From: Novosphingobium sp. SG919
GTDB taxonomy: Bacteria; Pseudomonadota; Alphaproteobacteria; Sphingomonadales; Sphingomonadaceae
Direction: 5' to 3'
Length of the DNA: 64,000 bases
Assembly (NCBI RefSeq): GCF_012932495.1
Contig: NZ_JABCNG010000001.1
Coordinates: 2,232,001-2,296,000 of the forward strand
The translations under genes were made by a program, and so were the position numbers. How positions within the stretch are numbered: the first letter of the stretch is position 1; each line of letters begins with the position of its first letter. Below the pieces are notes generated by a model, which was not told where the DNA came from, did not search any database, and worked only from the letters and a program-made list of their open reading frames with translations. This document shows positions 8,994-31,640 of this stretch, one piece after another.

Positions 8994-8996
8994 TTT

Positions 8997-9024
8997 TGTC
9001 AGCCCCCTAAGGTCCTCCCCGTCT
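8997..9024 (+). promoter_or_regulatory. Possible ECF-type promoter before the TonB receptor gene
   Basis: TGTCA (8997-9001) and CGTCT (9020-9024) are separated by 18 bp in the 92-bp gap between fecR-like and receptor genes. This form resembles promoters used by FecI-type sigma factors as I recall them. No second copy was found before the sigma factor gene, so it rests on one match. Confidence 0.3.
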
Positions 9025-9085
9025 CCGGCGTCGAACCCTGCATCGCACACGCATCAAGCGTGGCCAACGATGAGGGAGTGCAACC

Positions 9086-11644: not shown

Positions 11645-13800
11645 TGGCGCTCGCGCTCTCACTTCTGCTGGCCGAAGCCACCGTGGCCTGGCCTGTCGTC
11701 CCACCATCGGTAGCCGACCGCTGCGATCCGCCGGCCATCACGACTTCGGCTGCACCGGCGTCGCGCTTGGTCACGGCGCAAGACCTGGCCCGACTGGTCG
11801 ATATCGGGCGATCGGACCCGTATGATACGCCGCCGCCGTTTGGCCTGTCGCCGGACGGCAAGACCATTGCCGTGCTCCTGCGCCAAGCCGATCCGGCCCA
11901 CAACGCCTATTGCCAGCGCCTGGTCCTTATTCCCGCCGTACCGCCGGAAGGTCAGACGGCGGCCCCCCGCGAAATCGACCGTGGCGGCGCTTTCATCCCG
12001 GCGACGTACCCGTTGCGCACGTTTCCGGCGCTGCGGGCGGGCTATGGCCAGGTGATCACCCCGCACTGGTCGCCCGATGGCCGGACGATTGCCTATATCA
12101 AGCAGACCGCCGGGCCGCCCCAGGTCTGGCTGGTGCCCCGTGACGGCGGCGCGGCCCGGGCGCTGACGGCTCTGCCGGACGCCGTGGAGAACCTCGCCTG
12201 GAACGCCGAGGGCACGGCCCTGATCATCGCGACCCGCCCTGCCCTGCGCGCGCAGAGCGAAGCGATCACCGCTACAGCACACGAGGGCTATCTCTACGAC
12301 GATCGCTTTGCCCCGGAACTGGCCGACCATCCCATTCCCTCGGCTCCGATGCCGCTGGTCTACAGCCATGTCGACATCGCTAGCGGAATCGTCCAGCCGG
12401 CAACGTCGGCCGAACAGGCGATACTGGCGCCGCCAGGCGCGCCAGGCCAGCCTCCGCAGGCCAGCAGTGCGACGCGCAGCGCCGACGGTCGCTGGGCCTG
12501 GATCGAGCCGATCCATCCCGCATGGGTGGTCAGTGCGCGCCAGGTGGTGATCGAAGCGCCGGCACGACGGGGGCAACCACGTCGATGGCTGTGTCCCGAA
12601 GCACTTTGCGACGGCACCATGCATCTCTGGTGGTCGCGCAGTGGCACGACGCTCTACCTCCTGCAGCGCACCGGCTGGGGTCGCAGCCAGACCCGCCTGC
12701 TGCGCTGGCGCAGCGGCACGCCGCGCCCCGAACCCGTACTCACCACCGACGATGTGCTGGTCGGGTGCGTCCCAGCTCCCGATGCCCTCTACTGTGCCCG
12801 GGAAAGCAGCGCGCACCCGCGCGTGCTTGTTCGTATCGATTGGCGCAGCGGCGCATCGCGCACGGTGTTCGATCCCAATCCGCAATGGGCGCAGTTCCGG
12901 CTCGGCCCAATCCAGCGGCTCAAGGTCCGCAATGCTTATGGCGTCGAGAACCATGCCGACCTTGTCTTGCCGCCCGGCCATCGCCGCGGCCAGCGCCATC
13001 CCCTGGTCGTCGTACAATATGTCAGCGAAGGCTTCCTGCGCGGCGGCACCGGCGACGAGAACCCGATCCAGCCGCTGGCGGCCCGCGGCTTTGCCGTGCT
13101 CAGCTTTGCCCGTCCCACCTCGGTGCCAAGCGTGCGCGACGCGCCCAATGAAACCGAGCTGATGCGGCGCGAGCACGTCGACTGGCTCGATCGCCGCAGC
13201 GTCCAGTCGGCTCTGGAGGAAGCGCTGCGCCAGGCCGTGGCTACCCGCACGGTCGATCCGGCGCGCATGGGGATCACCGGCATGAGCGAAGGCACGTCGA
13301 TGACGCAGTGGGCGCTGCTGAACAGCAAACTGTTCAAGGCCGCCGAGCTGGGCGTCTGCTGCGAGGGCCCGACGATTTACCCGCTGGTCGCTGGTCCAGT
13401 GTTCGAGAGACTCGGTCGTCAGCTTGGCACGGCCTGGTTCGAGCCGAATTCGGAGCAAGTCTGGAAACCAATGGACCTTGCCGCCAATGCCGAGCGGATC
13501 ACCGCGCCGATCCTGATTCAGTCGGACGACAGCGAATATACCAACGCGCTCGATGTCGTGGCCCGGTTCCGCCTCCTTGGCAAACCGATCGAGATGTGGG
13601 TCATGCCCGGCGAGCCCCATTTCAAGTGGCAGCCGGCGCATCGCCTGGCAATGTACGAACGGACGATGGACTGGTTCAGCTTCTGGTTGCAGCACCAGCG
13701 CGATTGCGACCCGAACAAGGCCACACAGTACCAGCGCTGGCTGGCGATGCCTGGCGCACCCAGCAAAGACGAGGTCACCTGCCTCCCATCACGACCATGA
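11644..13800 (+). CDS. Lasso peptide isopeptidase (AtxE2-type S9 prolyl oligopeptidase)
   Basis: Predicted to open the isopeptide ring of a lasso peptide. The 718-residue protein has a short signal-like N-terminus, an N-terminal beta-propeller (FGLSPDGKTIAVLL, HWSPDGRTIAYIK) and a C-terminal alpha/beta-hydrolase. The nucleophile is Ser548 in GITGMSEGTS, the acid Glu631 in SDDSEYTNAL and the base His659 in GEPHFKW. Ser-Glu and Glu-His spacings of 83 and 28 match those I recall for AtxE2 (Ser527, Glu610, His638). It starts in the receptor stop codon and its last 12 bp overlap the convergent cyclase gene. Family assignment relies on this spacing and context. Confidence 0.9.
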   Translation: MALALSLLLAEATVAWPVVPPSVADRCDPPAITTSAAPASRLVTAQDLARLVDIGRSDPYDTPPPFGLSPDGKTIAVLLRQADPAHNAYCQRLVLIPAVPPEGQTAAPREIDRGGAFIPATYPLRTFPALRAGYGQVITPHWSPDGRTIAYIKQTAGPPQVWLVPRDGGAARALTALPDAVENLAWNAEGTALIIATRPALRAQSEAITATAHEGYLYDDRFAPELADHPIPSAPMPLVYSHVDIASGIVQPATSAEQAILAPPGAPGQPPQASSATRSADGRWAWIEPIHPAWVVSARQVVIEAPARRGQPRRWLCPEALCDGTMHLWWSRSGTTLYLLQRTGWGRSQTRLLRWRSGTPRPEPVLTTDDVLVGCVPAPDALYCARESSAHPRVLVRIDWRSGASRTVFDPNPQWAQFRLGPIQRLKVRNAYGVENHADLVLPPGHRRGQRHPLVVVQYVSEGFLRGGTGDENPIQPLAARGFAVLSFARPTSVPSVRDAPNETELMRREHVDWLDRRSVQSALEEALRQAVATRTVDPARMGITGMSEGTSMTQWALLNSKLFKAAELGVCCEGPTIYPLVAGPVFERLGRQLGTAWFEPNSEQVWKPMDLAANAERITAPILIQSDDSEYTNALDVVARFRLLGKPIEMWVMPGEPHFKWQPAHRLAMYERTMDWFSFWLQHQRDCDPNKATQYQRWLAMPGAPSKDEVTCLPSRP

Positions 13801-15525
13801 ACGCGCCCAGGCCTCGGCTTCGACCAGATCGAGCAAGCGATAGATCCGGTCGTCGTCCGCCTGGGCGTCGAGCGCCAGTGCCGCATCGATGGCGGCAAGG
13901 TCGAGCAGCCCCTGCCCGGCCAGCAGGCCATCGTGCAGCATCGCCCGCAGCCGCACCCGGTCCCGCGCAAAGACCGCGCGCATGACCGTGTCCGGTCCGG
14001 CCTTGGCGACCCGCCCGGTGATCGCAGCCGGCAGCTCAGCGGCGAACGCCGCGCGCGCGGGCGCGCGGTTGATGCCGCCCTGACACCAGACCCAGCTCGG
14101 AATGGCGAGGCAGGTCTCGACGAGCGGCTGGCTGAACAAAGGCGAAAAGCGCAAGGGATCATCCAGGCCATGGACGTGATGCTGCGCCGCCTGGATCAAG
14201 CGCAAGTGCGCCCGCGCCCCTGTCGCCGTCATCGGCACCTGCGCTTCCCAGTCGGTCAGCGGCAACGAGGGCGCAGTCTCGCCCGGGCCTGCCAGAAGAG
14301 CAAGGTTCGGTGCGCGTGTCGCAGAGCGCTGGCGCCGCCACCATTGCCGAACGATGGCGCGGACCAGGGTCGGGGCGTCGGCGCCGGTCAGTCGGCAGAG
14401 GTCGACAAAGATCTGTGCCAACTGGCGCGACGACCCCAGCGCGCGCCACGCATCAAGAAACGGCGCTGCCGAGTGCAAAAAACAGAACACGTTGTCACCG
14501 CCATTGCCATCCAACACGCGGGCCGCGCCGACTGCGGCACAGGCCGCACTGAGCTGACGCCGCAACTCGCCGACGAACATCTTGCCCACCGGCCGCGCGC
14601 TTCGCGCAAAGCTCGCCTCGCCCGAATCGATTGCGGCGAGCGCGTAGTGCGCCGCGCGCCACGGGACGGCCAGCCGCGCCGCAAGGCTGGCGACATAGGC
14701 GGTTTCGTCGCCGCTGGGATCCCGGGTGGACACGGTAGCGCAGGAGAACGGCCGTTGTTCAACTGCCAGGGCCGCGCACACCAGCGAGGAATCGACACCG
14801 CCCGAAGCCGCGACAACCACCCGCCCGAAATGCCCGGACCAGGCGCGGACCACCATGCGGGCACAATCCCGCACGCGCTGCGCTGCGGCCGAAGGCGTGA
14901 TGTCGCCCGACGCCGACAGATGGAGCGCCGGTTGCCAGATCACCTCCTCATGCACTGCCTGCCCCAGACGATGGAGCACGCCGGGCGAAAGTTCATCGAC
15001 ACCCGCCAGGCACGTCGCGCGCTGCCGTCGCTCAGGGTCCTGCAGGAACTGCTGCACGCGGGGCCAGGACACAGGAGTGGCGATCCCCGCCTGCGCGAAC
15101 AATGCCGGTGCCGTCGCCAGCAGCCAGCGGCCAGAGTCGATGCGCCGATAGAGCGGAAGCAGGCCGGAAGGGTCGCGCAGGATTGCCGCTGCGCCGGTCC
15201 GCGGATCAATCAGCACCGCAAACCATGCGCCCCAAGTCTTGCCAACCAACCAGCGCGCCACGGCCGACAGGTCGGCGAGGCCCGGGGCGTCGGCCAGGGG
15301 ATCGGCCAGGACGCTGCCGCCGCGATCGAAACTGCAGCCTACCAGCAAACCCCAGGCCCCAAGCGAACGGACCGACCAGCCCTCTCCCAGCCATATGCCG
15401 CTGTGTGCCGTGCGCAGCTCGCGCAACTGTCGCAGCGGGGAAAGACCTTCGCCAAGCCCGCCGTGCACGGGCAGGGCCAATGCAACCGCCAGCGGCTTTA
15501 CAGGGCCAGGATCGGGATGAAGCAT
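13789..15525 (-). CDS. Lasso peptide cyclase (asparagine synthetase-like C protein)
   Basis: ATP-dependent macrolactam synthetase of 578 residues that would join Gly1 of the core to an Asp or Glu side chain. The C-terminal half holds the PP-loop SGGVDSS (241-247), which adenylates the carboxylate, and DGNGGDNVF further on. The N-terminal part resembles a glutamine amidotransferase domain but does not begin with Met-Cys, as in lasso cyclases. The start at 15525 overlaps the B gene by 28 bp; the frame is open further upstream but lies inside B. Its stop overlaps the convergent isopeptidase stop by 12 bp. Confidence 0.92.
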   Translation of the reverse strand: MLHPDPGPVKPLAVALALPVHGGLGEGLSPLRQLRELRTAHSGIWLGEGWSVRSLGAWGLLVGCSFDRGGSVLADPLADAPGLADLSAVARWLVGKTWGAWFAVLIDPRTGAAAILRDPSGLLPLYRRIDSGRWLLATAPALFAQAGIATPVSWPRVQQFLQDPERRQRATCLAGVDELSPGVLHRLGQAVHEEVIWQPALHLSASGDITPSAAAQRVRDCARMVVRAWSGHFGRVVVAASGGVDSSLVCAALAVEQRPFSCATVSTRDPSGDETAYVASLAARLAVPWRAAHYALAAIDSGEASFARSARPVGKMFVGELRRQLSAACAAVGAARVLDGNGGDNVFCFLHSAAPFLDAWRALGSSRQLAQIFVDLCRLTGADAPTLVRAIVRQWWRRQRSATRAPNLALLAGPGETAPSLPLTDWEAQVPMTATGARAHLRLIQAAQHHVHGLDDPLRFSPLFSQPLVETCLAIPSWVWCQGGINRAPARAAFAAELPAAITGRVAKAGPDTVMRAVFARDRVRLRAMLHDGLLAGQGLLDLAAIDAALALDAQADDDRIYRLLDLVEAEAWARSWS

Positions 15526-16157
15526 GCCACAGCCTCGGGCGTGTCGTTGAGCACCATGCGTCCAGCCTGGGCCCAGCAATGGGCCGCGAAGGGCCCCTGC
15601 CGCACACCCAGCACGGCATGGGCGCGCCAGCCGCACCGGGCGAGCAGGTCGACCAGCGCGAGGGAACGCGGCAGGCAGCGATCGGCGGCCGTCCGCAGAA
15701 AGCAGGCAAACTGAAACCCGCGCACCAGTCGCCCGGCGGCATCATCGCTCCCGATCGGGCGCGATACCGCCTTCGCGGTCAAAGCCGCGAGTTCGTCGCA
15801 GAGCGCAGCGAGACCGCGACGCGCCAGAGCTCGCTCGAAGTGCCGCTGACGGCGCAGCGCCCGGGCGGTCTCCGGCAACGGCAATCCGCCGTCAGCCAAG
15901 GCACCACAGGGCTGATCCGGCAAGGACCAGCGGCAGGGTTCCAACGGCAGTGGATCGCTGGCCGCCCCTGCCAGTTCGCCAAGGCCAGCAGCAAGTAACG
16001 CCGTGCGATCGACAAGGCCGGTCGCAACGAGCGCACAAAATGCCTGGGCCTGCTGGTCGGGAAGACGAAAATAGCGTCCGGTGACGAGATCGAGAAAGAT
16101 CGGGTCGTCGCCGACGAGGCAGAAGTGCAGGCCCGGCCGCAAGAGTGATGGCGCCAT
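15498..16157 (-). CDS. Lasso peptide B protein (leader-binding domain fused to transglutaminase-like protease)
   Basis: A 219-residue protein that binds the leader and cuts it off. The N-terminal 80 residues (VGDDPIFLDLVTGRYFRLP) look like the RRE or B1 domain; residues 140-219 are the papain-like B2 part. The catalytic set is Cys161 in ADRCLPRSLALVDLL, His193 in PFAAHCWAQ and Asp205 in MVLNDTPE. Both domains are fused, as in proteobacterial McjB-type proteins. It overlaps the cyclase gene and lies 66 bp after the precursor, giving the order A-B-C. Confidence 0.92.
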   Translation of the reverse strand: MAPSLLRPGLHFCLVGDDPIFLDLVTGRYFRLPDQQAQAFCALVATGLVDRTALLAAGLGELAGAASDPLPLEPCRWSLPDQPCGALADGGLPLPETARALRRQRHFERALARRGLAALCDELAALTAKAVSRPIGSDDAAGRLVRGFQFACFLRTAADRCLPRSLALVDLLARCGWRAHAVLGVRQGPFAAHCWAQAGRMVLNDTPEAVACFIPILAL

Positions 16158-16223
16158 CGCACGATCCTCCGGGCAAGAGGACGCGAGCCGGTCAGGTTCC
16201 GGCCCGCGCCCAGGACAGGACGG

Positions 16224-16361
16224 TCAGTCTTCGACGATGCCGAGCGCGAAGCTCTGCTGGCCGATGCTGGCATCCTGCCGAGCAACCGCTTGGCCGCGGG
16301 TCACGGTGGCGACATCGCCGAGGTCGATGACGGCGGTGTCGGTCTGGTCACGGTCATTCAT
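16224..16361 (-). CDS. Lasso peptide precursor
   Basis: A 45-codon gene directly upstream of B and C. The leader is residues 1-22 (ending VATVTR) and the predicted core is residues 23-45. Thr21 is at position -2, Gly23 at core position 1 and Asp30 at core position 8, giving an eight-residue ring GQAVARQD. The 15-residue tail is ASIGQQSFALGIVED. Positions 7 and 9 are not acidic, so Asp8 is the only candidate acceptor. The LGDVATVTR|G junction resembles astexin leaders as I recall them. The ATG follows GGAAAGGA at 8 bases. No product of this sequence is known to me. Confidence 0.88.
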   Translation of the reverse strand: MNDRDQTDTAVIDLGDVATVTRGQAVARQDASIGQQSFALGIVED

Positions 16362-16559: not shown

Positions 16560-16739
16560 TCAACGCGGGCATTTGATGAACTTGCCCTTGGCATCCTTGC
16601 ACGGCTTCTTGGGTGCCGGTTTGGCGGCCGGGCACTTGATAAAACGGCCTTTGGCGTCCTTGCAGGGTGCAGCATGGACGACGATCGGCGCTGCGGCCAT
16701 GGTCATGGCTGCGGTCAAAGCGATTGCAAGCTTGCGCAT
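16560..16739 (-). CDS. Small secreted protein with duplicated PCKDAKG-FIKCP motif
   Basis: A 59-residue protein. Residues 1-24 are a signal peptide (MRKLAIALTAAMTMAAAPIV, cut near HAA). The mature part is two near-identical units: PCKDAKGRFIKCP (25-37) and PCKDAKGKFIKCP (46-58), joined by a Lys/Pro/Ala linker. Each unit has two Cys ten apart, so one disulphide or metal site per unit is likely. GGAGTG precedes the ATG. It is strongly basic. Similar small exported proteins occur in sphingomonads as far as I recall, without known function. It lies back to back with the lasso operon and is probably independent of it. Confidence 0.7.
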   Translation of the reverse strand: MRKLAIALTAAMTMAAAPIVVHAAPCKDAKGRFIKCPAAKPAPKKPCKDAKGKFIKCPR

Positions 16740-17746: not shown

Positions 17747-18388
17747 TCAATCGCGTATGTCGGCGTCCTGCGCGGAGGCTTCGGCAGTTGGCTCGGTCGC
17801 CTGTGGGGCGGCTGGCTGAATCGAGCGCACCATTGCCTGCAGATCGCGGAGGCGAAAGTCCACCCTGCCGGGATCCTCGCCGGCGCCTATCGCGGCTTTG
17901 AGGTAGCGACCGGCTGAAGTCTCACTTTCGAACCATTTGGCTTCCGGTCCAGACGTCACCGCCGCCGCATCGGCAAGAACCTGCACCGCAGCTTGGTCAA
18001 AAGCGCCGCAGGCATCCAGCTTGGCCCAGGAAAATTGCCGCGTGAGAGCATCATAGCAATTCTGGCTATAGATCATTTCGCCAGAGAGGCCTTCGGAGTG
18101 GGCTGCCAGAGCAAAGCGCTTGATCGCCAGTTTCACGCTGGCTCGATCAATGGGCATCACCGGCTGCCGGACCTGGGAAGTCACGCCGCTGGCAATGGCC
18201 TCAGGGGCAGCCTCGCTCGTAGCGTCATGAGGTTCGCTGGCACTGCCCGAGCATTGGCCGATCGCCCAGGCGAGCAGGCACAACACCACAAAGCCGACGA
18301 CAAACACGCCATTATCCCGCTTGTTGGGCGGCTGGCTACCCGCTCGGCGGCTGGTGGGCAAGGTGTACTCCCTCTGTCGTGCGGCCAT
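17747..18388 (-). CDS. Membrane-anchored hypothetical protein
   Basis: A 213-residue protein with a short basic cytoplasmic N-terminus, one membrane helix (about 28-46, VFVVGFVVLCLLAWAIGQC) and a periplasmic part of about 165 residues with an Ala/Glu/Pro-rich linker and tail. Residues 82-150 hold a helical region with two Cys (SQNCYDAL, LDACGAFD). No family was recognised. It is divergent from the Hxs cassette, 320 bp away, and could be part of that locus or independent. Confidence 0.6.
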   Translation of the reverse strand: MAARQREYTLPTSRRAGSQPPNKRDNGVFVVGFVVLCLLAWAIGQCSGSASEPHDATSEAAPEAIASGVTSQVRQPVMPIDRASVKLAIKRFALAAHSEGLSGEMIYSQNCYDALTRQFSWAKLDACGAFDQAAVQVLADAAAVTSGPEAKWFESETSAGRYLKAAIGAGEDPGRVDFRLRDLQAMVRSIQPAAPQATEPTAEASAQDADIRD

Positions 18389-18604
18389 GAACGCAAGGCC
18401 GGTTGGGCGTTCGCACCGCTACTGTGCGAGTCACTGCCATGCAACGTAGAAAAATCCATGACCGTTGCCCGAACAGAATCGTAGACAGATTGAGCCTTCG
18501 TGTTGCTGAAAGTGGATTGCTCCCGCATTATACCTTGAACAACGCCGGAAGCTGGTGTGGACTTGCCACCTTCATCGGGTGCCACGAAGTAGAGGATTTA
18601 ACCT

Positions 18605-18709
18605 GTGCTCTTCTCTAGGCAGTTGGGGCTTGGTCGCATGCGTCATGGCGGTAGGCTCGTCGATCCATTGGTCACGGTTGCAGCGACCATCATCGGATTG
18701 CTCGCCTGA
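18605..18709 (+). CDS. Possible 34-codon coupled reading frame before hxsB
   Basis: A short frame that begins at GTG 18605 (or ATG 18638) and ends at TGA 18707-18709, overlapping the hxsB ATG as TGATG. The ATG version reads MRHGGRLVDPLVTVAATIIG and three more residues, so half is hydrophobic. It may be a coupling peptide, the end of a lost gene or chance. I see no match to HxsD, which is expected near here and would be near 100 residues. Confidence 0.3.
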   Translation: MLFSRQLGLGRMRHGGRLVDPLVTVAATIIGLLA

Positions 18710-20112
18710 TGGCCCTGCGACAGTATCAGCTTCCCGCCGGGCGGGCCTTGTTCGTCAACGCTGGTGGCAGTTTCTTCCTGGCATCGCGAGCTGCCTGCAT
18801 GAGACTGTACAACAGCGCTTTGCTCGACGCCGACCACGACTTTCTCCATTTGCACGGGCATGTTCTGGAGCCAGGCGACAAACTAGGACATGTCGCGCGC
18901 GCCTATGCTGAGGCACAGCGTGCAGCGGTATCCCGGCAACTGGACTATCTGATTCTGGTCCCGACATTGCGGTGCGATCTGTCGTGCAGCTATTGCCAGG
19001 TATCGCGCGTAGCAGCAACGCAGCCGGGCTATGACTGGAGCGAAGACACGGCAGAGGCCGTGTTGCACCTGCTCGATACGCTTGCGACGTCGCAGATCAA
19101 AATCGAATTCCAGGGCGGCGAACCGACGCTGAGGCCGGACCTGGTGCGGCGCGTCATCGAGCGCTGCGCCCGGTTCGACCAGCGCGAGTTCGTGATCTGT
19201 ACCAATCTTCAGCGCCTCGACGACGACATTCTTGCGTTGCTTGACCACCCCGATGTGTTCATCAGTACGTCTCTTGACGGAAGCCCAGATGTTCATTCGC
19301 GCAACCGGACCGGCTCCGCTCAAGCGACTGACCGGTTTTTTGACAATCTTGCAACGGTCGTAGCGCGCTATGGACCCAAAAAGATCGCCGCCCTGCCAAC
19401 GATTGATCCGGCGGCACCGCCGGATATCGATGCCTTGATCGACAGCTATAACCGACACGGGCTTGAAAGCATTTTCCTGCGACCGATCAATTACCAGGGA
19501 TTTGCCCGAAAACGGCATCGCGATGCCCGCGAGCAGGGCGACGACTGGCGCGCCTACTACGAGCGGTTCGTCCGCCGCTTGATAGCGCGCAATTGGCAGG
19601 ACCGAAGCCGCGTACTCGAGGAAGCCTATCTGAGCATAGCCCTCCGGCGGATTTTCCGGCCCGGTACGGAACGCCATGTCGATCTGCGCAGCCCCAACCC
19701 GCTGGGGATCGACTACATCGTGGTCGATCACGACGGCGTGGTCTATCCTACCGATGAGGCGCGCATGCTTGCACGGGCCGGCGTGATCGATTTGGCTATC
19801 GGGACTGTCGCGGCGGGCTGGGACAGTCCAGCACGCGACTTGCTGAACAAGCACTCCAGCAATTCCGATGATCCTGCATGCCAGACGTGCGCGTTTCAGC
19901 CATTCTGTGGGCGGGATCTCGTCGATGACATAGCGCGCTATGGTCGCATCGACCTGCCTCGGCACGAAACGGAATTCTGTCGACGGCACACGCATCTCTT
20001 CAGCTTCATTTTCCGATTGCTGTATGAAGAGGATGAAGCCGTGCGCTATTCCTTGGCGCGCTGGCTGCGCCTTCCCGGCACGTTGGCACCTGCGATGGAT
20101 TATCTGGCATGA
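18709..20112 (+). CDS. hxsB: His-Xaa-Ser system radical SAM maturase HxsB
   Basis: Radical SAM enzyme of 467 residues that should modify the His-Xaa-Ser protein HxsA. The [4Fe-4S] motif is CDLSCSYC (Cys89, Cys93, Cys96), preceded by LDYLILVPTLR. The SAM GGE motif is FQGGEPTLRP near 128. C-terminal cysteines (ACQTCAFQPFCG) suggest a SPASM-like auxiliary cluster. The name rests on length, the N-terminal layout, the C-terminal cysteines and its place before a second radical SAM gene and a His-Xaa-Ser repeat protein. It overlaps hxsC by 4 bases. Confidence 0.88.
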   Translation: MALRQYQLPAGRALFVNAGGSFFLASRAACMRLYNSALLDADHDFLHLHGHVLEPGDKLGHVARAYAEAQRAAVSRQLDYLILVPTLRCDLSCSYCQVSRVAATQPGYDWSEDTAEAVLHLLDTLATSQIKIEFQGGEPTLRPDLVRRVIERCARFDQREFVICTNLQRLDDDILALLDHPDVFISTSLDGSPDVHSRNRTGSAQATDRFFDNLATVVARYGPKKIAALPTIDPAAPPDIDALIDSYNRHGLESIFLRPINYQGFARKRHRDAREQGDDWRAYYERFVRRLIARNWQDRSRVLEEAYLSIALRRIFRPGTERHVDLRSPNPLGIDYIVVDHDGVVYPTDEARMLARAGVIDLAIGTVAAGWDSPARDLLNKHSSNSDDPACQTCAFQPFCGRDLVDDIARYGRIDLPRHETEFCRRHTHLFSFIFRLLYEEDEAVRYSLARWLRLPGTLAPAMDYLA

Positions 20113-21194
20113 TTCCGCTCAGCCTGCGCGGCCTCGCCGAAGCCAAGGCGCCCTATGTCGTCCGCTTGAGAACAGCAGCGTGCGGAGAGCCAGGCCCGGA
20201 CGATGCCCGGTCGGTAGGCCAGGACGACGAGGGCGTCGCATTCTCGGGGAGCAACGGGCTTCTGGCCATCGATGGCGCGAGTGCAGCGATGCTCGATGGC
20301 GATGTCGTGCTGGTCGATCCACGCCGACAACGGGTCGAACGCTTGCTGCGTGCCGGATCACAGCACAACACGCTGGTTGTCACGGAGCGCTGCGATCAGC
20401 TTTGCGTGATGTGCTCCCAACCTCCCAAGAAGACCCATGTCGATCGCTTTGCGTTGCTCGAGAAAGCATGCCTGTTGGCCGCGCCCGATCTGCTGATCGG
20501 TATATCGGGGGGCGAACCGACGCTGTTCAAGGAGGAACTCCTGGGGATGGTCGAGCGGGTTATCAGCGCGCGGCCCGACCTCTCGTTCCACATCCTCAGC
20601 AACGGACAGCACTTCACGGAACAGGATATTCCTCGGTTGGCAGCACCTGTGTACCGCCGCGTGAGTTGGGGCATTCCGATCTACGCGGCGACGGCGGGCC
20701 TGCACGACGCGATCGTCGCCAAGGACGGCGCATTTGTTGCCTTGCAGAATGGTCTTGCAGTTTTGATTATGGCCGGGGCACGGGTCGAACTGCGCACCGT
20801 GCTGGTGAAGGACAACCTGAATGCATTGCCGGAACTGGCTAGGTTCGTGGCGGCCCGCTTGCAGTTTGTCGAAGCATGGTCACTAATGCAATTGGAGCAC
20901 GTTGGATTTGCAAAAGGACGCTGGGCCAATCTGTTCGCAGACCATCGAGAGGCCTTCGCGCCGTTGGCCGAGGCGATCGATTATGCGACCTTGCACGGCG
21001 TGCGCGCACAGTTGTTCAACTTTCCGCGATGCACCGTCCCCGCGGCATATCGTCGGCTGGCCAGGGCTTCGATATCCGACTGGAAGCGCAAATTTCCGGA
21101 CCGTTGCGCGCCGTGCCGGGAGCAGGTGGAATGCGGCGGGTTTTTCGCATGGCATCCCGATGACCACGCCAACCAAATGGTGCAGCCATTATGA
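20109..21194 (+). CDS. hxsC: His-Xaa-Ser system radical SAM maturase HxsC
   Basis: A second, distinct radical SAM enzyme, 361 residues. The cluster motif is CDQLCVMC (Cys95, Cys99, Cys102) with VVTERC before it; GISGGEPTLFKEEL is the SAM-binding segment. A C-terminal Cys set (DRCAPCREQVECGGFF) may bind a further cluster. The 90-residue N-terminal part before the cluster is typical of HxsC as I recall it. ATGA overlaps join it to both hxsB and hxsA, so the three proteins are coupled in translation. Chemistry on the substrate is not established. Confidence 0.88.
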   Translation: MIPLSLRGLAEAKAPYVVRLRTAACGEPGPDDARSVGQDDEGVAFSGSNGLLAIDGASAAMLDGDVVLVDPRRQRVERLLRAGSQHNTLVVTERCDQLCVMCSQPPKKTHVDRFALLEKACLLAAPDLLIGISGGEPTLFKEELLGMVERVISARPDLSFHILSNGQHFTEQDIPRLAAPVYRRVSWGIPIYAATAGLHDAIVAKDGAFVALQNGLAVLIMAGARVELRTVLVKDNLNALPELARFVAARLQFVEAWSLMQLEHVGFAKGRWANLFADHREAFAPLAEAIDYATLHGVRAQLFNFPRCTVPAAYRRLARASISDWKRKFPDRCAPCREQVECGGFFAWHPDDHANQMVQPL

Positions 21195-21820
21195 AACGTC
21201 GGCGCTTTCTCATTCCCAGCCTCTTAGCGGCGGGGCTCGGCGCGCACGATCCAGCGCGCGCCGCTGGCGATGAACCCGGGGTGGTTCCGCCGCCAACCGA
21301 TCCCGATGGCGCGAGCCTAGCGCGCCTGTATAGCCAGGACCATCTGTTCACGCTGGCAAGCCATCGCAGCCACAGCAGCCATTCAAGCCACAGTTCGGGC
21401 AGCGGCGGTGGCGGCCACTATAGCCACACCAGCCACCGCTCGAGCACGAGTGGTTACGATGGGGGAAGCTTCAGCTACGATCCACCAGCGATGCCAAGCT
21501 TGCCCAGGACGCCTTCCTCGTCCCCGTCCCCGCCGAACCAGACCGCGCCCCTGCCACTATTTGCACCATCCGAGCGAGCGTCGCCGCCAACCAGCGATGG
21601 CCTGGCCCCTCTCTCGGGTCGTACGCGACGCTTTGCCGCAATTGTCCGAAGAGTGGAACTCGCCCTGCTTGCTCAGGATTTCTACAAAGGGCCGATTGAC
21701 GGCACTGTGACCCCTGAACTGCGCGCAGCGCTACGGGCGTTTCAGGGCAAGCGGGGTCTTGACGTCACGGGGACGATCACCCCCGCGACGCTGGACGCAC
21801 TAATGGTTGCCAGCCAGTAA
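21191..21820 (+). CDS. hxsA: His-Xaa-Ser repeat protein HxsA, predicted modified substrate
   Basis: A 209-residue exported protein. The start MKRRRFLIPSLLAAGLGAHD has a double-Arg, Tat-like or Sec signal. Seven His-Xaa-Ser triplets follow in two runs: His58, 61, 64 and 67, then His76, 79 and 82, the runs split by a Gly spacer. A Pro/Ser linker (about 95-130) leads to a C-terminal peptidoglycan-binding-like domain (145-206, FYKGPIDGTVTPELRAAL). It ends the operon. The design suggests a radical-modified His/Ser segment tethered to the cell wall; the modification is unknown. Confidence 0.9.
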   Translation: MKRRRFLIPSLLAAGLGAHDPARAAGDEPGVVPPPTDPDGASLARLYSQDHLFTLASHRSHSSHSSHSSGSGGGGHYSHTSHRSSTSGYDGGSFSYDPPAMPSLPRTPSSSPSPPNQTAPLPLFAPSERASPPTSDGLAPLSGRTRRFAAIVRRVELALLAQDFYKGPIDGTVTPELRAALRAFQGKRGLDVTGTITPATLDALMVASQ

Positions 21821-23565: not shown

Positions 23566-24918
23566 TCAGGGCGTATCGCCGCTGACATCGAACACGAGAT
23601 CACGCGTCACCAGGACGCGCACCGGATAGCCGGGGCGGATCGTCAATGTGGGAGGCACGTCGAGCGCGCGCGCCACGATCTGCGTGCCGGCGCGGTTGAC
23701 GCTATCCTGCCCACCCTGGCGCAGAGCGCGGACCAGCGCATCGTTGCTATCGCTGCCCCATTCCGCCCCGACCGCGAGCAGCGTCGAGACCGCGGCCGCG
23801 CGCATGATCCCGCCCCAGTGAAAATCGGTGCGATCCTCAAGCCCCGCCTGGCCGGCCGGATCCGTGCCAGGCAACCGATCGAGGTCCAGCGAGCGGCCAT
23901 CGGGCAGGATGAGCCGCGTCCAGACGAGCAAGGCGCGGCGCTGCCCGGCGGCAATGGCGGCGTCGTATTCGCCGATCAGACGTGCGCCTTGCGGTACGAG
24001 TACCTGCGCGCCGGACAGGCTGTCATAGACGTTCTGGGTCACTTGCGCGGTGATCTGGCCAGGCAGGTCGGACCGCAGCCCAGTGATCAGCGCCGCCGGG
24101 ATGACACTGCCGGCCTGTAGCACCGCCGGTCCACCTGGCGGCATGAGGCGCGCTGTCGAGATGGTCGGCGCGTTGGCCGGGCGATCGAGGAAGGCCTGGC
24201 GCGCGTCCGTCACCGACGAGGCGGAAGAATGCGGCTGGGCGCCAGGGGGCATCGCCCCGGCAGCTGGTTTCCCGCTAGCGGCACCGTTGTCCGCAGAGCG
24301 CTCGGCGTGGGTGACCGCCTCGCCTGCGAACAGGCGGCTCTGGCGCGCGGCATCACGCTCGGCCTGGCGCCGCTGCCGCATGGCGGCGACGCCATTGTCC
24401 CCGTTTCCGGCCGGCGGCGCGGCGGGCCGGAATCCGATCTGCTCCGCCATGGACCGCTCGTCGGACTTCGCCGGGCCGTTGCGCTCCGCCACCTTGAGTC
24501 CAGCCTGCCCCACATCACCGGGCAATACTGGGGCGAGCCGGGGAACCTGGGTGTAATCGCGCGGTGCCTTGGCCAACAGGTCGCCAGGCTGGGCCGGCGC
24601 AACCGGTTGCGGGTCGGCCCCCGAGGATGAGCGTCCGCCCTGCAGCCCAAAGGCAATTGCCAAGGCAACCAGAGCCACGCTCGTGGCCGTCAGGGTGAGG
24701 ACAGCCTTGCGCGACAGGCGCTCGACGCTTGGCCAAGCGGGACGCAGGCGGACCACCGATGCGGCCGCCGCTCGCGCCCAACCAAGCCAATCATGCGGCT
24801 CGGCCACATTGGGCGCTTGATCGTTCTCCATGGGTGGGCATGCGCCGTCGAGCTCGCCATGGCGCGCGTTGGCGACATGCGCCGGATCAGAGCGCTGCGA
24901 TCGCTCCCGACCGGTCAT
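23566..24918 (-). CDS. trbI: Conjugal transfer protein TrbI (VirB10-like)
   Basis: Inner/outer-membrane spanning channel component of 450 residues. One membrane helix near 75-95 (LTATSVALVALAIAFGL), a Pro/Ala-rich linker, and a C-terminal VirB10 domain: IPAALITGLRSDLPGQITAQ, VYDSLSGAQVLVPQGARLIG and RALLVWTRLILPDGRSLDL. It starts inside the trbG stop (ATGA). It is the last gene of the block, converging with the DUF2285 pseudogene. Confidence 0.93.
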   Translation of the reverse strand: MTGRERSQRSDPAHVANARHGELDGACPPMENDQAPNVAEPHDWLGWARAAAASVVRLRPAWPSVERLSRKAVLTLTATSVALVALAIAFGLQGGRSSSGADPQPVAPAQPGDLLAKAPRDYTQVPRLAPVLPGDVGQAGLKVAERNGPAKSDERSMAEQIGFRPAAPPAGNGDNGVAAMRQRRQAERDAARQSRLFAGEAVTHAERSADNGAASGKPAAGAMPPGAQPHSSASSVTDARQAFLDRPANAPTISTARLMPPGGPAVLQAGSVIPAALITGLRSDLPGQITAQVTQNVYDSLSGAQVLVPQGARLIGEYDAAIAAGQRRALLVWTRLILPDGRSLDLDRLPGTDPAGQAGLEDRTDFHWGGIMRAAAVSTLLAVGAEWGSDSNDALVRALRQGGQDSVNRAGTQIVARALDVPPTLTIRPGYPVRVLVTRDLVFDVSGDTP

Positions 24919-25838
24919 GGCCGTGCCTTCCTGGCCAGCGCCATGATTGTCACGCGTTGCGCCGATTTGCGATCGCCCAGCCGCAATTCGGCGCGGTCGA
25001 ACAGGCGATCGACGACCAGGAAGCGACCGGCCACGCGGTAGTTGACGAGTTCGAGCTGCCCCCCTGTGCCGGTGACGAACAGCGGCGGCAGGGTGCTCGC
25101 CGCAATGTCATCGGGGAACCCGATGTAGACCCGCTGGCCGTCGTCGAAGACACGAGCGGGTCGCCAACGCGGCCGGTCCCCACCGATGCTGTAGCGGAAA
25201 TCGAGTGCGCTCGGATCGATGCCCGCCGCGACCGGCGCGGCTCGCTGCGCGGCCTCGGCGCGGACGCGCAGGGCCACGAGCTCATCCTCGGGATAAGTCC
25301 ACGACACCGCAGCGAGCCAGGTCGACGGTGTCGCGCGCAACTCGAGATAATAGGTGCGCCGATCGGTGTTGATCACCAGGTTGGTGGCAATGTCGTTGCG
25401 GATCGGCTTGACCAGAATGTGCACCCGCTGGGCCGACCCAGTGCCGCTGTTGGTATCGCCGATCAGCCAGCGCACGGTGTCGCCGGCCGCGACCGGACCA
25501 GTACCCACCAGACGCTCGCCGTCCTGCAGAGCAATATCGGTCACGTGACCGGGACTGGCGTAGACCTGGTAAAGCGCGCCTGCAGCAAACGCATAGCGCT
25601 GGATGGCATTGGCAAAGCCCTGTGGGTCGGGCTCGACGCGCGCCGCGCCGTTGGCTTGGGCGACGCGCGCGGCTGCAACTGGGCGCGACGCAACGCCATG
25701 ATCCGCCGCGGCCACGCTCGCCGCCAGGCTCGCAGCGCCGAGCGGGGCGATCGCCAGCAGCAGCAGCAATGGCGCGATCAGGCACCTGCGCAAACGCATG
25801 GAACAGGCAGGCCAGACAACGACATTCGGACAGTTCAT
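24915..25838 (-). CDS. trbG: Conjugal transfer protein TrbG (VirB9-like)
   Basis: Outer-membrane-complex protein of 307 residues. A signal region includes LRRCLIAPLLLLLAIAPLGA. The VirB9-type domain shows HVTDIALQDGERLVGTGPVA, DTVRWLIGD, RVHILVKP and TNLVINTDRRTYYLELR. The start at 25838 overlaps the trbF stop by 4 bases; an internal ATG 13 codons on is an alternative. Confidence 0.92.
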   Translation of the reverse strand: MNCPNVVVWPACSMRLRRCLIAPLLLLLAIAPLGAASLAASVAAADHGVASRPVAAARVAQANGAARVEPDPQGFANAIQRYAFAAGALYQVYASPGHVTDIALQDGERLVGTGPVAAGDTVRWLIGDTNSGTGSAQRVHILVKPIRNDIATNLVINTDRRTYYLELRATPSTWLAAVSWTYPEDELVALRVRAEAAQRAAPVAAGIDPSALDFRYSIGGDRPRWRPARVFDDGQRVYIGFPDDIAASTLPPLFVTGTGGQLELVNYRVAGRFLVVDRLFDRAELRLGDRKSAQRVTIMALARKARP

Positions 25839-26518
25839 GGCGTTAGCTCCCTCGACCAGTTGATAGCGGTGATGAATATCCCCAGCGGGTTCTTGAGCAG
25901 CCTGTCGGCCGTCCGCGGCGCCTGGACCGTGACGGTCAGGATCGCGCTCCACTGCTCGGTCTGCGCAAGCGTACCATCGCGGTAATGGCGCTCGCGCCAG
26001 GCGATGCGGAAGCTGTCGGGGGATGCCCGCACCACGCTGGTCACGTCGACCGCGACCTGCTCCTGGCCGATCCGCGCAAAGGGATCGTTGCTGCGCGCGT
26101 CGGCACCGAGCGCCTGGCCGCCGCTGTCGCTCACGAAATCATAGGCGCGCAACCAGTTCTGTCGCACCACCACCGGATCGGCCGAAAGGCTGCGCACATC
26201 CTCGATGAAGCGGGCGAGCTGGTAGGCGATCTGCGGATCGGTCGGCCGGTAGCCGGCCGCGGCGGGTGCCACCGCACGGACCTCGCCGAGCCGGTCCACT
26301 TCGACGACCCATGGCACGATCGTGCCGCGTGCGCCCTGCCAGATCAGGCCACCTGCGAGCAAGCCGGACAGGCCGAGCGCGGCAAGGCAGGCGCAGCGCC
26401 AGTTGCGGGCCTGGACACGGGCTGCGCCAATCCGCTCGTCCCAGACCTGGGCGGCGCGCTGGTAGGGCGTTACCGGTTCGGGGGTCGTCGCGTAGCGGAT
26501 CGAGGAACGCCGGAACAT
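25835..26518 (-). CDS. trbF: Conjugal transfer protein TrbF (VirB8-like)
   Basis: Inner-membrane assembly factor of 227 residues. The N-terminus has TPYQRAAQVWDERIGAARVQ, a membrane helix at about 42-62 and a VirB8/TrbF periplasmic domain (PWVVEVDRLGEVRAV, ALGADARSNDPFARIGQEQV, RIAWRERHY). It ends in the characteristic NPLGIFITAINWSRELTP, which is near-invariant in TrbF. Confidence 0.94.
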   Translation of the reverse strand: MFRRSSIRYATTPEPVTPYQRAAQVWDERIGAARVQARNWRCACLAALGLSGLLAGGLIWQGARGTIVPWVVEVDRLGEVRAVAPAAAGYRPTDPQIAYQLARFIEDVRSLSADPVVVRQNWLRAYDFVSDSGGQALGADARSNDPFARIGQEQVAVDVTSVVRASPDSFRIAWRERHYRDGTLAQTEQWSAILTVTVQAPRTADRLLKNPLGIFITAINWSRELTP

Positions 26519-26521
26519 GGA

Positions 26522-27787
26522 TCAATCGTCCTTCTGCGAAGTGTCGATACTGGTGCCAGCGCCCTGGCTGTCGCCACTGCGCAGCGTGTGGGCGGCCATC
26601 ATCGCGCCCTGGCCGAGTGCCTGGCGTCGGCGCAGCGCGCGGGCCCAGGCAGGCGGGCTGCCTGGCGCGGCGGAGTCGACAGCGGCGTGGCCAGCGGAAG
26701 AGGCGCTACGGCCGCCTTCGCTCGACCCGACGCCGGTCTTGCGCAGCGGCGCCGTGGCGGCGCGGGCTGCCGTGCTGCCAACCTGGCCAAGCCCATGCAC
26801 GATGCCCGCCAAGCCGGCGTGCCCGGCGGCGCCCTCCCGGTAGGCGGCGCCGGCGGCGCTCGCGCCGCGCAGCGCGCCCCCGGCTGCGGCTGCCGCCGCG
26901 CTGCCGGCAAGTCCCACCGCGGCGGCACCGCCCGCAGCAAGGCCGCCGGCTCCGAGCACGGTGGCCGCTGTCGCGCCGGCGCCGAGCTGGGGGCCGCCCG
27001 ACACCAGCCCACTGGCGATGCCTGGGCCGAAGATTGCCAGCGCCAGGAGAGTCAGGCTGGCCAGCACCAGTGTCATGGCATCCTCGAGCGTCGGCGTGCC
27101 TTGGATCGCGGCGGTAAACTCGCCGAAGATGGTCGAGCCGATCCCGACGATGACCGCCAGGACCAGCACCTTGATGCCGGCAGCCGCGACATTGCCGAGC
27201 ACGCGTTCGGCCAGGAACGCGGTCTTGCCGAACAGCCCGAACGGCACGAGCACGAAACCGGCCAGCGTGCTGAGCTTGAATTCGACGAGCGTCACGAACA
27301 GCTGGATCGCCAGAACGAAGAAGGCGAGCACCACCAGGACCCAGCAACCGAGCAGGATGACGATCTGCACGAAGTTCTCGAAGAAGCTGACATAGCCCAT
27401 GAGGTCGGCAATCGCCTGGAGCAGCGGGCGGCCGGCGTCCAGCCCGACCTGGGCGATGCGGCCAGGCTGGAGCAGTTGCGCCGTGGTCGTGGCCGTGCCG
27501 CTGGCCTTGAGGCCCAGTCCGGCGAAACTTTCGAAGACCACGCGCGCGAGCATGTTCCAGTTGCCGATGAGCCAGGCAAACACACCGACAAACAGGGTCT
27601 TGCGGAACAGGCGGGCGAGAATGTCCTCGTGCTCGCCCCAGGCCCAGAACAGCGCGGCAAGCGTGACGTCGATCGCCACCAAGGTACTGGCGATGAATGC
27701 GACATCGCCATGGAGCAGGCCAAAGCCACTATCGATATAACGCGAGAAAACCGCCAGAAAGCGATCGATAACGCCGGTGCCGTTCAT
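26522..27787 (-). CDS. trbL: Conjugal transfer protein TrbL (VirB6-like)
   Basis: Polytopic inner-membrane protein of 421 residues. Several hydrophobic helices fill residues 1-250 (from NGTGVIDRFLAVFSRYIDSG onward). The C-terminal 170 residues are Ala/Gly-rich and low in complexity, as is common in TrbL. It starts 1 bp after trbK ends and precedes trbF. Confidence 0.9.
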   Translation of the reverse strand: MNGTGVIDRFLAVFSRYIDSGFGLLHGDVAFIASTLVAIDVTLAALFWAWGEHEDILARLFRKTLFVGVFAWLIGNWNMLARVVFESFAGLGLKASGTATTTAQLLQPGRIAQVGLDAGRPLLQAIADLMGYVSFFENFVQIVILLGCWVLVVLAFFVLAIQLFVTLVEFKLSTLAGFVLVPFGLFGKTAFLAERVLGNVAAAGIKVLVLAVIVGIGSTIFGEFTAAIQGTPTLEDAMTLVLASLTLLALAIFGPGIASGLVSGGPQLGAGATAATVLGAGGLAAGGAAAVGLAGSAAAAAAGGALRGASAAGAAYREGAAGHAGLAGIVHGLGQVGSTAARAATAPLRKTGVGSSEGGRSASSAGHAAVDSAAPGSPPAWARALRRRQALGQGAMMAAHTLRSGDSQGAGTSIDTSQKDD

Positions 27788-27788
27788 C

Positions 27789-28118
27789 TCACCAGTCCTC
27801 CTTCACCGGCAACGGGTCGGCGGCCGGCCCTGCCCCGGCGACCTGCCGCGTCGGCAGGCCAAAGAAGCGACGACGCCGTGCGTCCCACCGGGCCGCGCAC
27901 GACGCCATGGCCGGATCGTTGACCGCAATCGTCGCGCAGCGCCGAGCAAGCGTATCGCCGGCCAGCGGCGCAGCGACTGCGGGCCGCGTGTCCAGCAGGG
28001 TCACAGCATCGTCCCTGTGCGGTGCCGGCAAGAGCAGCGCAAGCAGCGCCACTAACCCGGCCAGGCCGAGAAAGGCGAGCAGCAGGACGCGTGGCGTGCG
28101 GGTGCGACGCATGACCAT
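27789..28118 (-). CDS. Putative entry-exclusion protein TrbK-alt
   Basis: A 109-residue protein with an N-terminal membrane helix (TPRVLLLAFLGLAGLVALLALLLP) and a short periplasmic part with two Cys (RRCATIAVNDPAMASCAARW) and RRRFFGL. This matches the TrbK-alt type found between trbJ and trbL, which is thought to block redundant transfer. ATG 28118 follows the trbJ stop directly; ATG 28112 is an alternative start. Confidence 0.85.
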   Translation of the reverse strand: MVMRRTRTPRVLLLAFLGLAGLVALLALLLPAPHRDDAVTLLDTRPAVAAPLAGDTLARRCATIAVNDPAMASCAARWDARRRRFFGLPTRQVAGAGPAADPLPVKEDW

Positions 28119-28874
28119 TTACTCGTGAAACAGCGTCACCGGGTCGGCGACATAGCCGCTCCCCGGAGAAAGGAAGCGACGCAGCTGCTCGCGCGCCTGG
28201 GTCTTGGCCGCTGCGGCCCCAGCCGCGTCAAGCGTCTGCGCCCGCCCCTGGGCAGCGATCGTCGCCGCAAGATCGGCGAGCTGCTGCGACTGAACCGCGA
28301 GGATCTGGTTGCCGGCCTCGATCGCCTGGAGCGCTCCTGTGGCGTCCTGGCTTGCCTGCATCAGGCTGGTGAGCGACTGGCGCGTCGTGTCGAGATGGCC
28401 GACCGTCAAGGCCTGGATCTTGAGCGCATCCTCGAATGCCGCGACACTGTCCTGCCAGCGGCTCTGGGCACCGGCAACCAGCGCCTGGTCGGACGCTGAC
28501 AGGTCGATCGCGCGATAGCGGGCGGCAAAACCCGACTGGACCGTATCGACATTGTAGCTCAGGCGCTGCGCCTGCCGCAGCAACTGCCGCGTCTGATCGA
28601 GTTGCTGCTCAATCGGCGCGACCAGCGAGAGCGGCAGGCTGGCAAGGTTGCGCGCCTCGTTGAGCAGCGACTGGGTCTGGTTCTCGATCTGGCGCAGCTG
28701 GTTGTTGACCTGCTGCAAGGCGCGTGCGGCCGTCAGGACGTTCTGCGCGTAGTTTGACGGGTCGTAGACGATGCCGCCGAACTGGGCCTTAGCCGGCGCG
28801 GGCAGGACGGCCAGCAGGCTGGCTCCCAGCAAAGCGGCGATCGCGCGCGGTGCGCGCAAGGGGCTAACGCTCAT
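28119..28874 (-). CDS. trbJ: Conjugal transfer protein TrbJ (VirB5-like)
   Basis: Periplasmic or pilus-tip protein of 251 residues with signal peptide (cut after APAKA). The TrbJ signature GGIVYDPSNYAQNVLTAARA is followed by long coiled-coil helices (QQVNNQLRQIENQTQSLLNE). The start overlaps the trbE stop by 4 bases; the longer open frame upstream lies within trbE. Confidence 0.93.
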   Translation of the reverse strand: MSVSPLRAPRAIAALLGASLLAVLPAPAKAQFGGIVYDPSNYAQNVLTAARALQQVNNQLRQIENQTQSLLNEARNLASLPLSLVAPIEQQLDQTRQLLRQAQRLSYNVDTVQSGFAARYRAIDLSASDQALVAGAQSRWQDSVAAFEDALKIQALTVGHLDTTRQSLTSLMQASQDATGALQAIEAGNQILAVQSQQLADLAATIAAQGRAQTLDAAGAAAAKTQAREQLRRFLSPGSGYVADPVTLFHE

Positions 28875-31351: not shown

Positions 31352-31358
31352 GACGGCC

Positions 31359-31640
31359 TCACACCGCAAAATAGGCTGGAAAGCGAAGATGCCGGCGCGC
31401 CACTTCGACGAACTGGGGATCGCGGCGCCCGGCCCAGACGCCAAGTCCATGGCCCACGCCGAGCAGGGCGAGGCCGACCAGCCACAGCCGCAAGCCCAGC
31501 CCCACTGCGCCGGCCAGCGTAGCGTTGATGATTGCCAGGCCGCGCGGCGCGCCGGCCAGCAGGATCGGCTCCACCAGGGCGCGATGCACCGGCACGGCAA
31601 AGCCTGGCACGATCGTCGGATCGGAAGTGTCCTCGCTCAC
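31359..31640 (-). CDS. trbD: Conjugal transfer protein TrbD (VirB3-like)
   Basis: A 93-residue membrane protein. It begins VSEDTSDPTIVPGFAVPVHR from a GTG that overlaps the trbC stop (GTGA). ALVEPILLAGAPRGLAIINA is the TrbD signature; two hydrophobic helices follow. It is normally required with TrbE. Confidence 0.9.
   Translation of the reverse strand: MSEDTSDPTIVPGFAVPVHRALVEPILLAGAPRGLAIINATLAGAVGLGLRLWLVGLALLGVGHGLGVWAGRRDPQFVEVARRHLRFPAYFAV

Follow-up and report, generated by a model that had tools for sequence, protein, structure and literature searches.

The window analyzed here, a stretch of 64,000 nucleotides from Novosphingobium sp. SG919, carries an Hxs cassette without HxsD, in which two radical SAM enzymes (HxsB and HxsC) are encoded directly ahead of HxsA, a protein with tandem His-Xaa-Ser (HxS) triplets. 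The Hxs system with its MauG-like partner is already known in NCBIfam, where HxsA, HxsB, HxsC, HxsD, TIGR03981 and TIGR03982 are curated families. The original prediction of an undescribed cassette was thus too strong as regards the genes, although it stands for the product and its role. Three observations are new. HxsD is not found in the window genome and has been lost repeatedly among sphingomonads, with the invariant residues of the window enzymes still intact. A divergent gene of no known family, here called mem213, is linked to sphingomonad Hxs loci. Finally, Ser is placed almost without exception two residues after each His of the HxsA repeat zone. The missing HxsD, the conserved mem213 gene and the agreement of the H(i)-S(i+2) spacing with three-residue cyclophane chemistry all go beyond what had been predicted. 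We propose, at about even chances, that before export HxsB together with HxsC crosslinks His(i) to Ser(i+2) into three-residue cyclophanes, and that the modified HxsA is held at the wall with mem213 acting alongside it.

Organization of the cassette

Three open reading frames follow one another on the forward strand in the order hxsB (18709..20112; 467 aa), hxsC (20109..21194; 361 aa) and hxsA (21191..21820; 209 aa), with successive 4-bp ATGA overlaps. The cassette proper begins at 18709, and not at 18605 where its start had been placed. HxsB passes the cut-off of its NCBIfam model TIGR03978 (391.1 bits against 370) and also matches PF04055; HxsC passes that of TIGR03977 (309.2 against 267.9 bits). 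These matches and the overlaps bear out the idea of two distinct radical SAM enzymes coupled to HxsA. The latter remains just short of the TIGR03979 cut-off (116.6 against 121.65 bits) but, as expected of an Hxs system, is encoded by a tandem HxS gene beside HxsB and HxsC. Compared with the system curated in NCBIfam (TIGR03976-TIGR03979, TIGR03981 and TIGR03982), the window shares the B-C-A order, an HxsB and an HxsC above their cut-offs, and the combination of tandem HxS and a PG-binding domain in HxsA. It differs in that neither HxsD nor a MauG-like partner was found, in an HxsA slightly below its cut-off, in an extra conserved neighbor at 17747-18388 and in a second, sphingomonad-only HxS run (among 89 HxsA).

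The peptidoglycan-binding-like end ascribed to HxsA corresponds to a PG_binding_1 domain at residues 152-204 (E 1.5e-11), and its export is probable, given an N-terminus that resembles a signal peptide when judged by eye. Twin-arginine export was considered as a family rule and discarded, as only 19 of the 77 distinct divergent-clade HxsA have an RR start of the type searched for. A start of hxsA at a 4-bp overlap with hxsC is possible in 85 of 89 loci, a count that is favored by the choice of the start nearest to the hxsC stop.

The HxS repeat

The number of triplets in HxsA is exactly the seven that had been predicted, arranged in two runs: HRS HSS HSS HSS (21362..21397, forward strand; residues 58-69, with triplets starting at 58, 61, 64 and 67) and HYS HTS HRS (21416..21442, forward strand; residues 76-84, with starts at 76, 79 and 82). 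Seven HxS were reached in just 1 of 100,000 shuffles of the window HxsA, and the varied synonymous codons of the triplets indicate that the repeat is not a DNA satellite. The motif itself is credited to Haft and Basu in PMC9062424.

Throughout the family, the spacing is nearly absolute. In the 84 distinct HxsA considered (5 loci without a found HxsA and 5 duplicate sequences were left out), Ser occupies the +2 position of 504 out of 505 His within the repeat zone, taken from the start of the first HxS run to +60. The middle residue is variable (R 213, S 209, G 23, T 21, A 19, Y 17, M 1 and V 1). Of 100 runs, only 4 have a Ser immediately before them, so HxS rather than SHx is the repeating unit. 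Since Cys is absent from the window HxsA, a thioether to Cys can be excluded on this protein.

The two radical SAM enzymes

The radical SAM cysteines were correctly assigned in the original prediction to residues 89/93/96 of HxsB and 95/99/102 of HxsC, and they are invariant in 42 of 42 aligned sequences, including the window. HxsB bears in addition a C-terminal four-Cys motif (Cys391/394/400/424), which can be read as an auxiliary cluster, and HxsC contains Cys308/333/336/342; all seven cysteines of either enzyme are invariant in the corresponding 42 sequences. Moreover, the window keeps each position that is invariant in the 41 other sequences (41/41 in HxsB and 34/34 in HxsC) and differs at none of the nearly invariant ones (0/31 and 0/25, respectively).

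When a single HxsB sequence was searched against solved structures, ChlB was the best of 4 matches (E 1e-7). ChlB is a multiple cyclophane synthase according to the title of a reference in PMC12636437. With a 42-row HxsB profile, 5wgg came first (E 9.5e-22), followed by ChlB (2.2e-17) and an anaerobic sulfatase maturase (6.1e-17); the sequence therefore does not single out cyclophane chemistry. Among curated families, the best for HxsB after its own model is PapB, a ranthipeptide (thioether) maturase, with 81.8 bits. The anaerobic sulfatase maturase model gives 48.1 bits, and the models of the cyclophane enzymes YhhB, AmcB and FxsB give 47.9, 38.5 and 31.3 bits, all far under their cut-offs (445, 425 and 370). 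The matches of HxsC to solved structures are weak and diverse, comprising cytosylglucuronate decarboxylase, viperins and SkfB.

Predicted chemistry of HxsA modification

Crosslinks between residues i and i+2 made by SPASM radical SAM enzymes are described in PMC11002830, namely C4(Phe)-Cbeta(Ser) for MscB, C2(His)-Cbeta(Ala) for HaaB and C2(His)-Cbeta(Arg) for YhhB. By analogy, the coincidence of the HxS spacing with the known Phe-Ser and His-Ala crosslinks, together with the ChlB match, would point to a cyclophane. The precursors of these triceptides/3-CyFE (MscB, HaaB, YhhB and ChlB) are alike in their aromatic(i)-x-partner(i+2) motif, here HxS at 504/505, with HxsB as a distant radical SAM relative that scores far under the curated models of those families. 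The Hxs system differs from them by its wall-binding substrate of about 200 aa and by the use of two enzymes instead of one.

According to this model, HxsA would be the ribosomally made substrate protein. Its core would be the tandem His-x-Ser triplets, while its conserved N-terminus, together with the stretch immediately ahead of them, would serve for recognition and export. HxsB would remove a hydrogen atom at Cbeta of Ser(i+2) and link this carbon to one of the imidazole carbons of His(i), with repeated three-residue cyclophanes as the outcome, while HxsC may catalyze a second reaction on this core or support that of HxsB. Several points tell against the model: PapB is the nearest curated family after that of HxsB itself and the cyclophane models score lower, one crosslink does not explain the role of HxsC, and Cys is present somewhere in 9 of the 84 HxsA. 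The i/i+2 spacing makes a definite chemical prediction of -2 Da per crosslinked triplet, and a natural three-gene Hxs without HxsD offers a small target for co-expression.

A mass shift alone cannot tell a crosslink from Ser oxidation, as conversion of Ser to an aldehyde is also -2 Da. HxsB and HxsC might oxidize the Ser of each triplet in a formylglycine- or aminomalonate-like manner, leaving His a role in recognition or metal binding only. This is improbable but has some basis in anaerobic sulfatase maturase, which is one of the nearest relatives of HxsB both in solved structures and in curated families, and in a Ser that is as constant at its position as His. Nevertheless, simple oxidation needs no His strictly two residues before every Ser. 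Nor was a motif resembling CxPSR or SxPSR seen in HxsA.

A different His-Ser bond, from nitrogen to the beta carbon (histidinoalanine-like) and formed by a radical route, fits the same i/i+2 logic. Precedents for related bonds are the radical SAM enzyme DynE, named for a C-N crosslink in a figure legend of PMC11002830, and the His-to-butyrine crosslinks mentioned for another peptide class in PMC10206099. We consider this bond distinctly doubtful, since the His cyclophanes named for HaaB and YhhB in the former source are C2-Cbeta and family searches recognised no dehydratase gene in the cassette. No better placed is epimerisation to D-amino acids, or another radical change without crosslinks, that would turn the HxS core into a rigid metal-binding rod. 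The action of two radical SAM enzymes on one repetitive core and the diversity of the solved HxsC matches are consistent with it, but it leaves the exact His/Ser spacing unexplained.

Absence of HxsD

In 70 of 93 related loci hxsD lies directly 5' of hxsB. Excluded from this tally were 4 loci whose 5' ends are truncated or unclear (L071, L093, L095 and L097), as well as the 10 canonical ones (L099-L108). Some loci, going by contigs of equal length, are probably redundant: L109 would represent the contig of L046, L118, L120 and L121 those of L028, L019 and L036, and the contig of G055 that of L058. In the window, the equivalent position is a 320-bp gap (18389..18708, forward strand) with no HxsD reading frame and no recognisable remnant. 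Local alignments of the gap with the hxsD of 11 relatives scored no higher than the top one of 50 shuffles in each case. This test is weak: in its control, which set the hxsD of L019 against the other ten, four comparisons likewise failed to rise above shuffle level.

At the genome level, a 65-row HxsD profile, widened from seeds of 11 sphingomonad and 1 rhizobial sequences, gave a best E of 1.13 over the whole window genome. The same profile found HxsD in 4/4 control genomes (6.5e-18 to 7.3e-28), these proteins being rows of the profile, and a fairer control, the earlier search with the seed profile, recovered four non-seed sphingomonad HxsD at 4.1e-10 to 1.3e-22. TIGR03976 had no match in the window genome and was equally silent on its control. 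Two further sphingomonad groups are without HxsD and yet keep HxsB, HxsC and HxsA; HxsD has been lost repeatedly in these bacteria. An HxsD-less copy could in principle be failing, but that the window cassette is decaying, with a system that no longer works and an unmodified HxsA, is very unlikely in view of these other groups and of the intact invariant and nearly invariant positions of both enzymes, even with HxsD found neither in the genome nor in the gap.

RREs of the PqqD type have a winged-helix fold. The HxsD of a relative is modeled as beta-alpha-beta-beta-alpha (pLDDT 93.1), and Foldseek linked it to no known fold at a threshold of 0.001 (the best match had E 0.069). In a comparison with known folds (VIA), the best Z was a middling 7.8, to Rpb11/RpoL-like subunits, with PqqD absent among the matches listed. 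A term search of the RRE-Finder paper (PMC7470986) gives no mention of Hxs.

A conserved membrane-protein neighbor and the envelope

The divergent mem213 gene (17747..18388, reverse strand) encodes a membrane protein of 213 aa. Counting the window, it occurs at 20 of the 26 sphingomonad Hxs loci; among 298 genomes of the family, its strong matches are limited to HxsB carriers. We propose that it is an Hxs partner. One membrane helix is predicted at the N-terminus of the protein, in addition to a helical domain whose Cys111 and Cys127 do not vary among 19 aligned sequences. The model reaches a pLDDT of at least 94 in each ten-residue block over 71-190, except for 141-150 (81). Searches of family collections gave no match to any known family, and a common family with the TIGR03982 protein was discarded (hhalign probability 0.2%). 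The fold had no Foldseek match at 0.001 and a best Z of 6.2, to a designed binder.

In the cyclophane model, HxsA would cross the inner membrane once modified, and its PG_binding_1 domain would anchor it at the wall; there the Cys-containing mem213 may work with it. The conserved mem213 is a first handle on the role of Hxs in the envelope. Other lineages may additionally place a di-haem MauG-like enzyme at the wall. The MauG-like partner of Hxs is curated as TIGR03981, and a MauG-like di-haem gene lies 3' of hxsA in related loci, which resembles the protein maturation assisted by MauG or MbnH (the MbnH/MbnP pair is described in PMC3621798). The window genome departs from this scheme, as no PF03150 gene was found there in a search whose control matched in 2 of 14 genomes. 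A bolder and unlikely extension is that two radical SAM enzymes, without HxsD, would assemble His-Ser cyclophanes on HxsA, fused or adjacent, into a polymer-like chain. This wall-fixed rigid imidazole rod would be a new periplasmic protein-derived redox or metal site, served by mem213 here and by a MauG-like di-haem enzyme elsewhere.

Distribution

An experimental Hxs product was not found in the searchable literature. Hxs cassettes are widespread and mobile, with relatives of HxsB occurring on 409 out of 72,556 plasmid records. A role as phage cargo was discarded because a search of 50,697 phage records gave no HxsB match at E 1e-20, even though there are PHROGs that match HxsB (one of them its C-terminal half) and HxsC. 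A defense function was discarded too, only weak viperin-like matches over the radical SAM core being seen.

The HxsBCA cassette and its enzymes

The coupling of HxsB, HxsC and HxsA put forward in the original prediction is borne out by the ATGA overlaps that connect hxsB (18709-20112) to hxsC (20109-21194) and hxsC to hxsA (21191-21820). The NCBIfam scores lie above the curated cut-off for the first two products and just under it for HxsA. The peptidoglycan-binding-like end claimed for HxsA likewise corresponds to a C-terminal PG_binding_1 domain. The radical SAM cysteines named at the outset, Cys89/93/96 of HxsB and Cys95/99/102 of HxsC, are kept across alignments of 42 sequences each (the window plus 41 selected out of 93 related loci), together with the C-terminal cysteines 391/394/400/424 of HxsB and 308/333/336/342 of HxsC, groups of four that would each hold one auxiliary cluster. 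The window departs at none of the positions invariant among the 41 other sequences (41 in HxsB, 34 in HxsC) and at none of those at least 90% constant (31 and 25, respectively); judged by sequence, both enzymes are intact.

The related loci comprise the best 80 of 108 confirmed by a profile-guided scan and 13 further regions, giving 93 besides the window, among which L109 duplicates L046. HxsB and HxsC were detected in all 93 and HxsA in 88, always in the order B-C-A where all three were detected, and an hxsA start with a 4-bp hxsC overlap is possible in 85 of 89 loci including the window, when the start closest to the hxsC stop is picked. On TIGR03978, HxsB of the window's divergent branch scores 360-404 bits (5 genomes) and that of the canonical branch 549-607 (10 genomes). 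HxsB was found at E 1e-60 or better in 15 of 398 genomes of a phylum sample; its occurrence in the family of the window is scattered (5/298 genomes), and none was found in the five further genomes of the genus that this search listed. In a plasmid collection, HxsB relatives occur at E 1e-30 on 409 of 72,556 plasmids (316 from Klebsiella, 325 predicted conjugative), with query coverage of at least 80% in only 74.

The HxsA repeat and its possible modification

The seven His-Xaa-Ser triplets in two runs described for the window's HxsA were confirmed by counting, and a shuffled protein reaches seven in 1 of 100,000 cases. Among 84 distinct HxsA, 505 His lie between the start of the first run and +60, and 504 of these are followed by Ser at +2. 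The middle residue varies, and Ser precedes the run in only 4 of 100 runs; read from these sequences, the repeat unit is H-x-S. Two motifs are shared by most divergent-branch HxsA: F.[IV][PSA][ST][LF] at the start (72 of 77) and H...[LFM]A.H.SH.S ahead of the run (75 of 77). Neither occurs in the 7 canonical HxsA found; the motifs resemble both recognition elements and a signal peptide. A second run occurs in 16 of 89 HxsA, every one from a sphingomonad.

According to PMC11002830, radical SAM cyclophane enzymes bond an aromatic residue i to the Cbeta of residue i+2, including Phe-Ser, His-Ala and His-Arg pairs. HxS repeats suit this geometry, His supplying the ring and Ser being the acceptor. 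The best solved-structure match of HxsB in a single-sequence search is ChlB; 5wgg ranks first in the profile search, and PapB first among curated models other than its own. Formation of a His-Ser crosslink on the repeats is therefore given about even chances; the rival modifications are Ser oxidation, N-linked crosslinks and epimerisation. At least two papers in the searched literature name the system: PMC9062424, where maturation by HxsB and HxsC is called putative, and PMC8446631, where it appears in a gene list; its TIGR family numbers gave no match in the searched literature, which leaves out most subscription papers.

Absence of HxsD

Directly 5' of hxsB, 70 of the 93 loci carry an HxsD-like frame (own profiles, E <1e-3; 12 seed loci included). 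With the same profiles, which do not reach 10 canonical loci, none was found upstream of hxsB in nine loci and the window, and four further loci are unclear. TIGR03976 has no match in the window's genome, which says little since this model also misses all four divergent HxsD tested; of two canonical HxsD tested, it matches one above and one below cut-off. A 65-row HxsD profile reached a best E of 1.13 in the window's genome, and across six canonical genomes its lowest E was 0.027. Its values of 6.5e-18 to 7.3e-28 in all four genomes with divergent-branch HxsB test the procedure only, because their HxsD are rows of the profile; a better control is the recovery of four non-seed sphingomonad HxsD at E 4.1e-10 to 1.3e-22.

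On the HxsB tree, by a quick method with canonical rows scored as having HxsD and four unclear rows omitted, HxsD presence changes three times, which in our reading would be losses inside the sphingomonads, in the window, in L029 with L040, and in the L031-L037 group. If the unclear rows are instead treated as a separate category, the starred branches force at least two changes for the HxsD-less label. These repeated HxsD-less loci, including G476, a further locus with a MauG-like gene, argue that catalysis itself probably does not require HxsD. L029 and L040 (Sphingomonadales UBA2369) are two Hxs copies in one genome bin, HxsD being detected in neither. HxsD of a relative was modelled as beta-alpha-beta-beta-alpha (pLDDT 93.1); the structural matches of this model to Pcc1 and Rpb11-like subunits are too weak for a fold to be named.

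Neighbouring genes

A new partner of the system is proposed in mem213, a divergent 213-aa membrane-protein gene at 17747-18388 (minus strand) whose homologues are present at 20 of the 26 Hxs loci of sphingomonads, the window among them; of the six others, L033 and L071 end too early to tell. It is mostly placed upstream, but in L031, L036 and L054 it lies downstream, beyond the MauG-like gene; 15 of the 16 HxsA with a second run have it as neighbour. The mem213 and HxsB searches are taken as covering the same 298 family genomes because the listed handles agree. Strong matches (E <1e-45) occur in four genomes, all among the five HxsB carriers and at most 4 kb from HxsB, and four genomes without HxsB have longer frames that match weakly (E 3.2e-9 to 2.6e-12). 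The one-sided Fisher p of 1.6e-8 (1.1e-6 with weak matches) measures absence elsewhere and no independent gain, because all four strong genomes supplied profile rows. The protein has a predicted membrane helix, a confidently modelled helical domain and, in 19 sequences, invariant Cys111 and Cys127; at the thresholds used it matched nothing in NCBIfam, Pfam, PHROGs or PADLOC.

A MauG-like di-haem gene begins 306-360 bp 3' of hxsA in 21 of 93 loci (frame shortened in L095). The match lies 2.6 kb further on in L093, and elsewhere in L033, where the examined stretch stops just past hxsA. A small protein occupies the intervening space, the one tested (L031) matching TIGR03982. All four MauG-like proteins tested exceed the TIGR03981 cut-off, a link already known, as that model is named "His-Xaa-Ser system-associated". 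PF03150 has no match in the window's genome.

Beyond the cassette, trb-type conjugation genes (23566-32997, minus strand) include TrbL, TrbC, CagE/TrbE-type and T2SSE ATPases by Pfam and TrbI/G/F recognised by eye; an integrated mobile element may therefore carry the cassette as cargo. On the other side, 7983-16361 holds a probable lasso peptide cluster, with FecR (7983-8993), a TonB receptor (9086-11644), an S9 peptidase (11638-13800), Asn synthase (13789-15636, minus), Transglut_core3 (15498-16157, minus) and a 45-aa frame (16224-16361, minus) as candidate precursor. A 59-aa protein (16560-16739, minus), whose start is signal-like and in which the motif CKDAKGxFIKCP recurs, has homologues close to Hxs in L032 and L035. 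The SNase-like nuclease (PF00565; 16754-17302, plus) belongs to a similarity cluster holding 11 Hxs loci including the window; an Endonuclease_NS protein near hxs in L023 (Pfam) belongs to one that covers 8 loci. Matches to VWA, PP2C and, weakly, protein kinase lie near hxs in L031, assigned by Pfam, and in L051, L054, L072, L079 and L080, assigned by similarity cluster.
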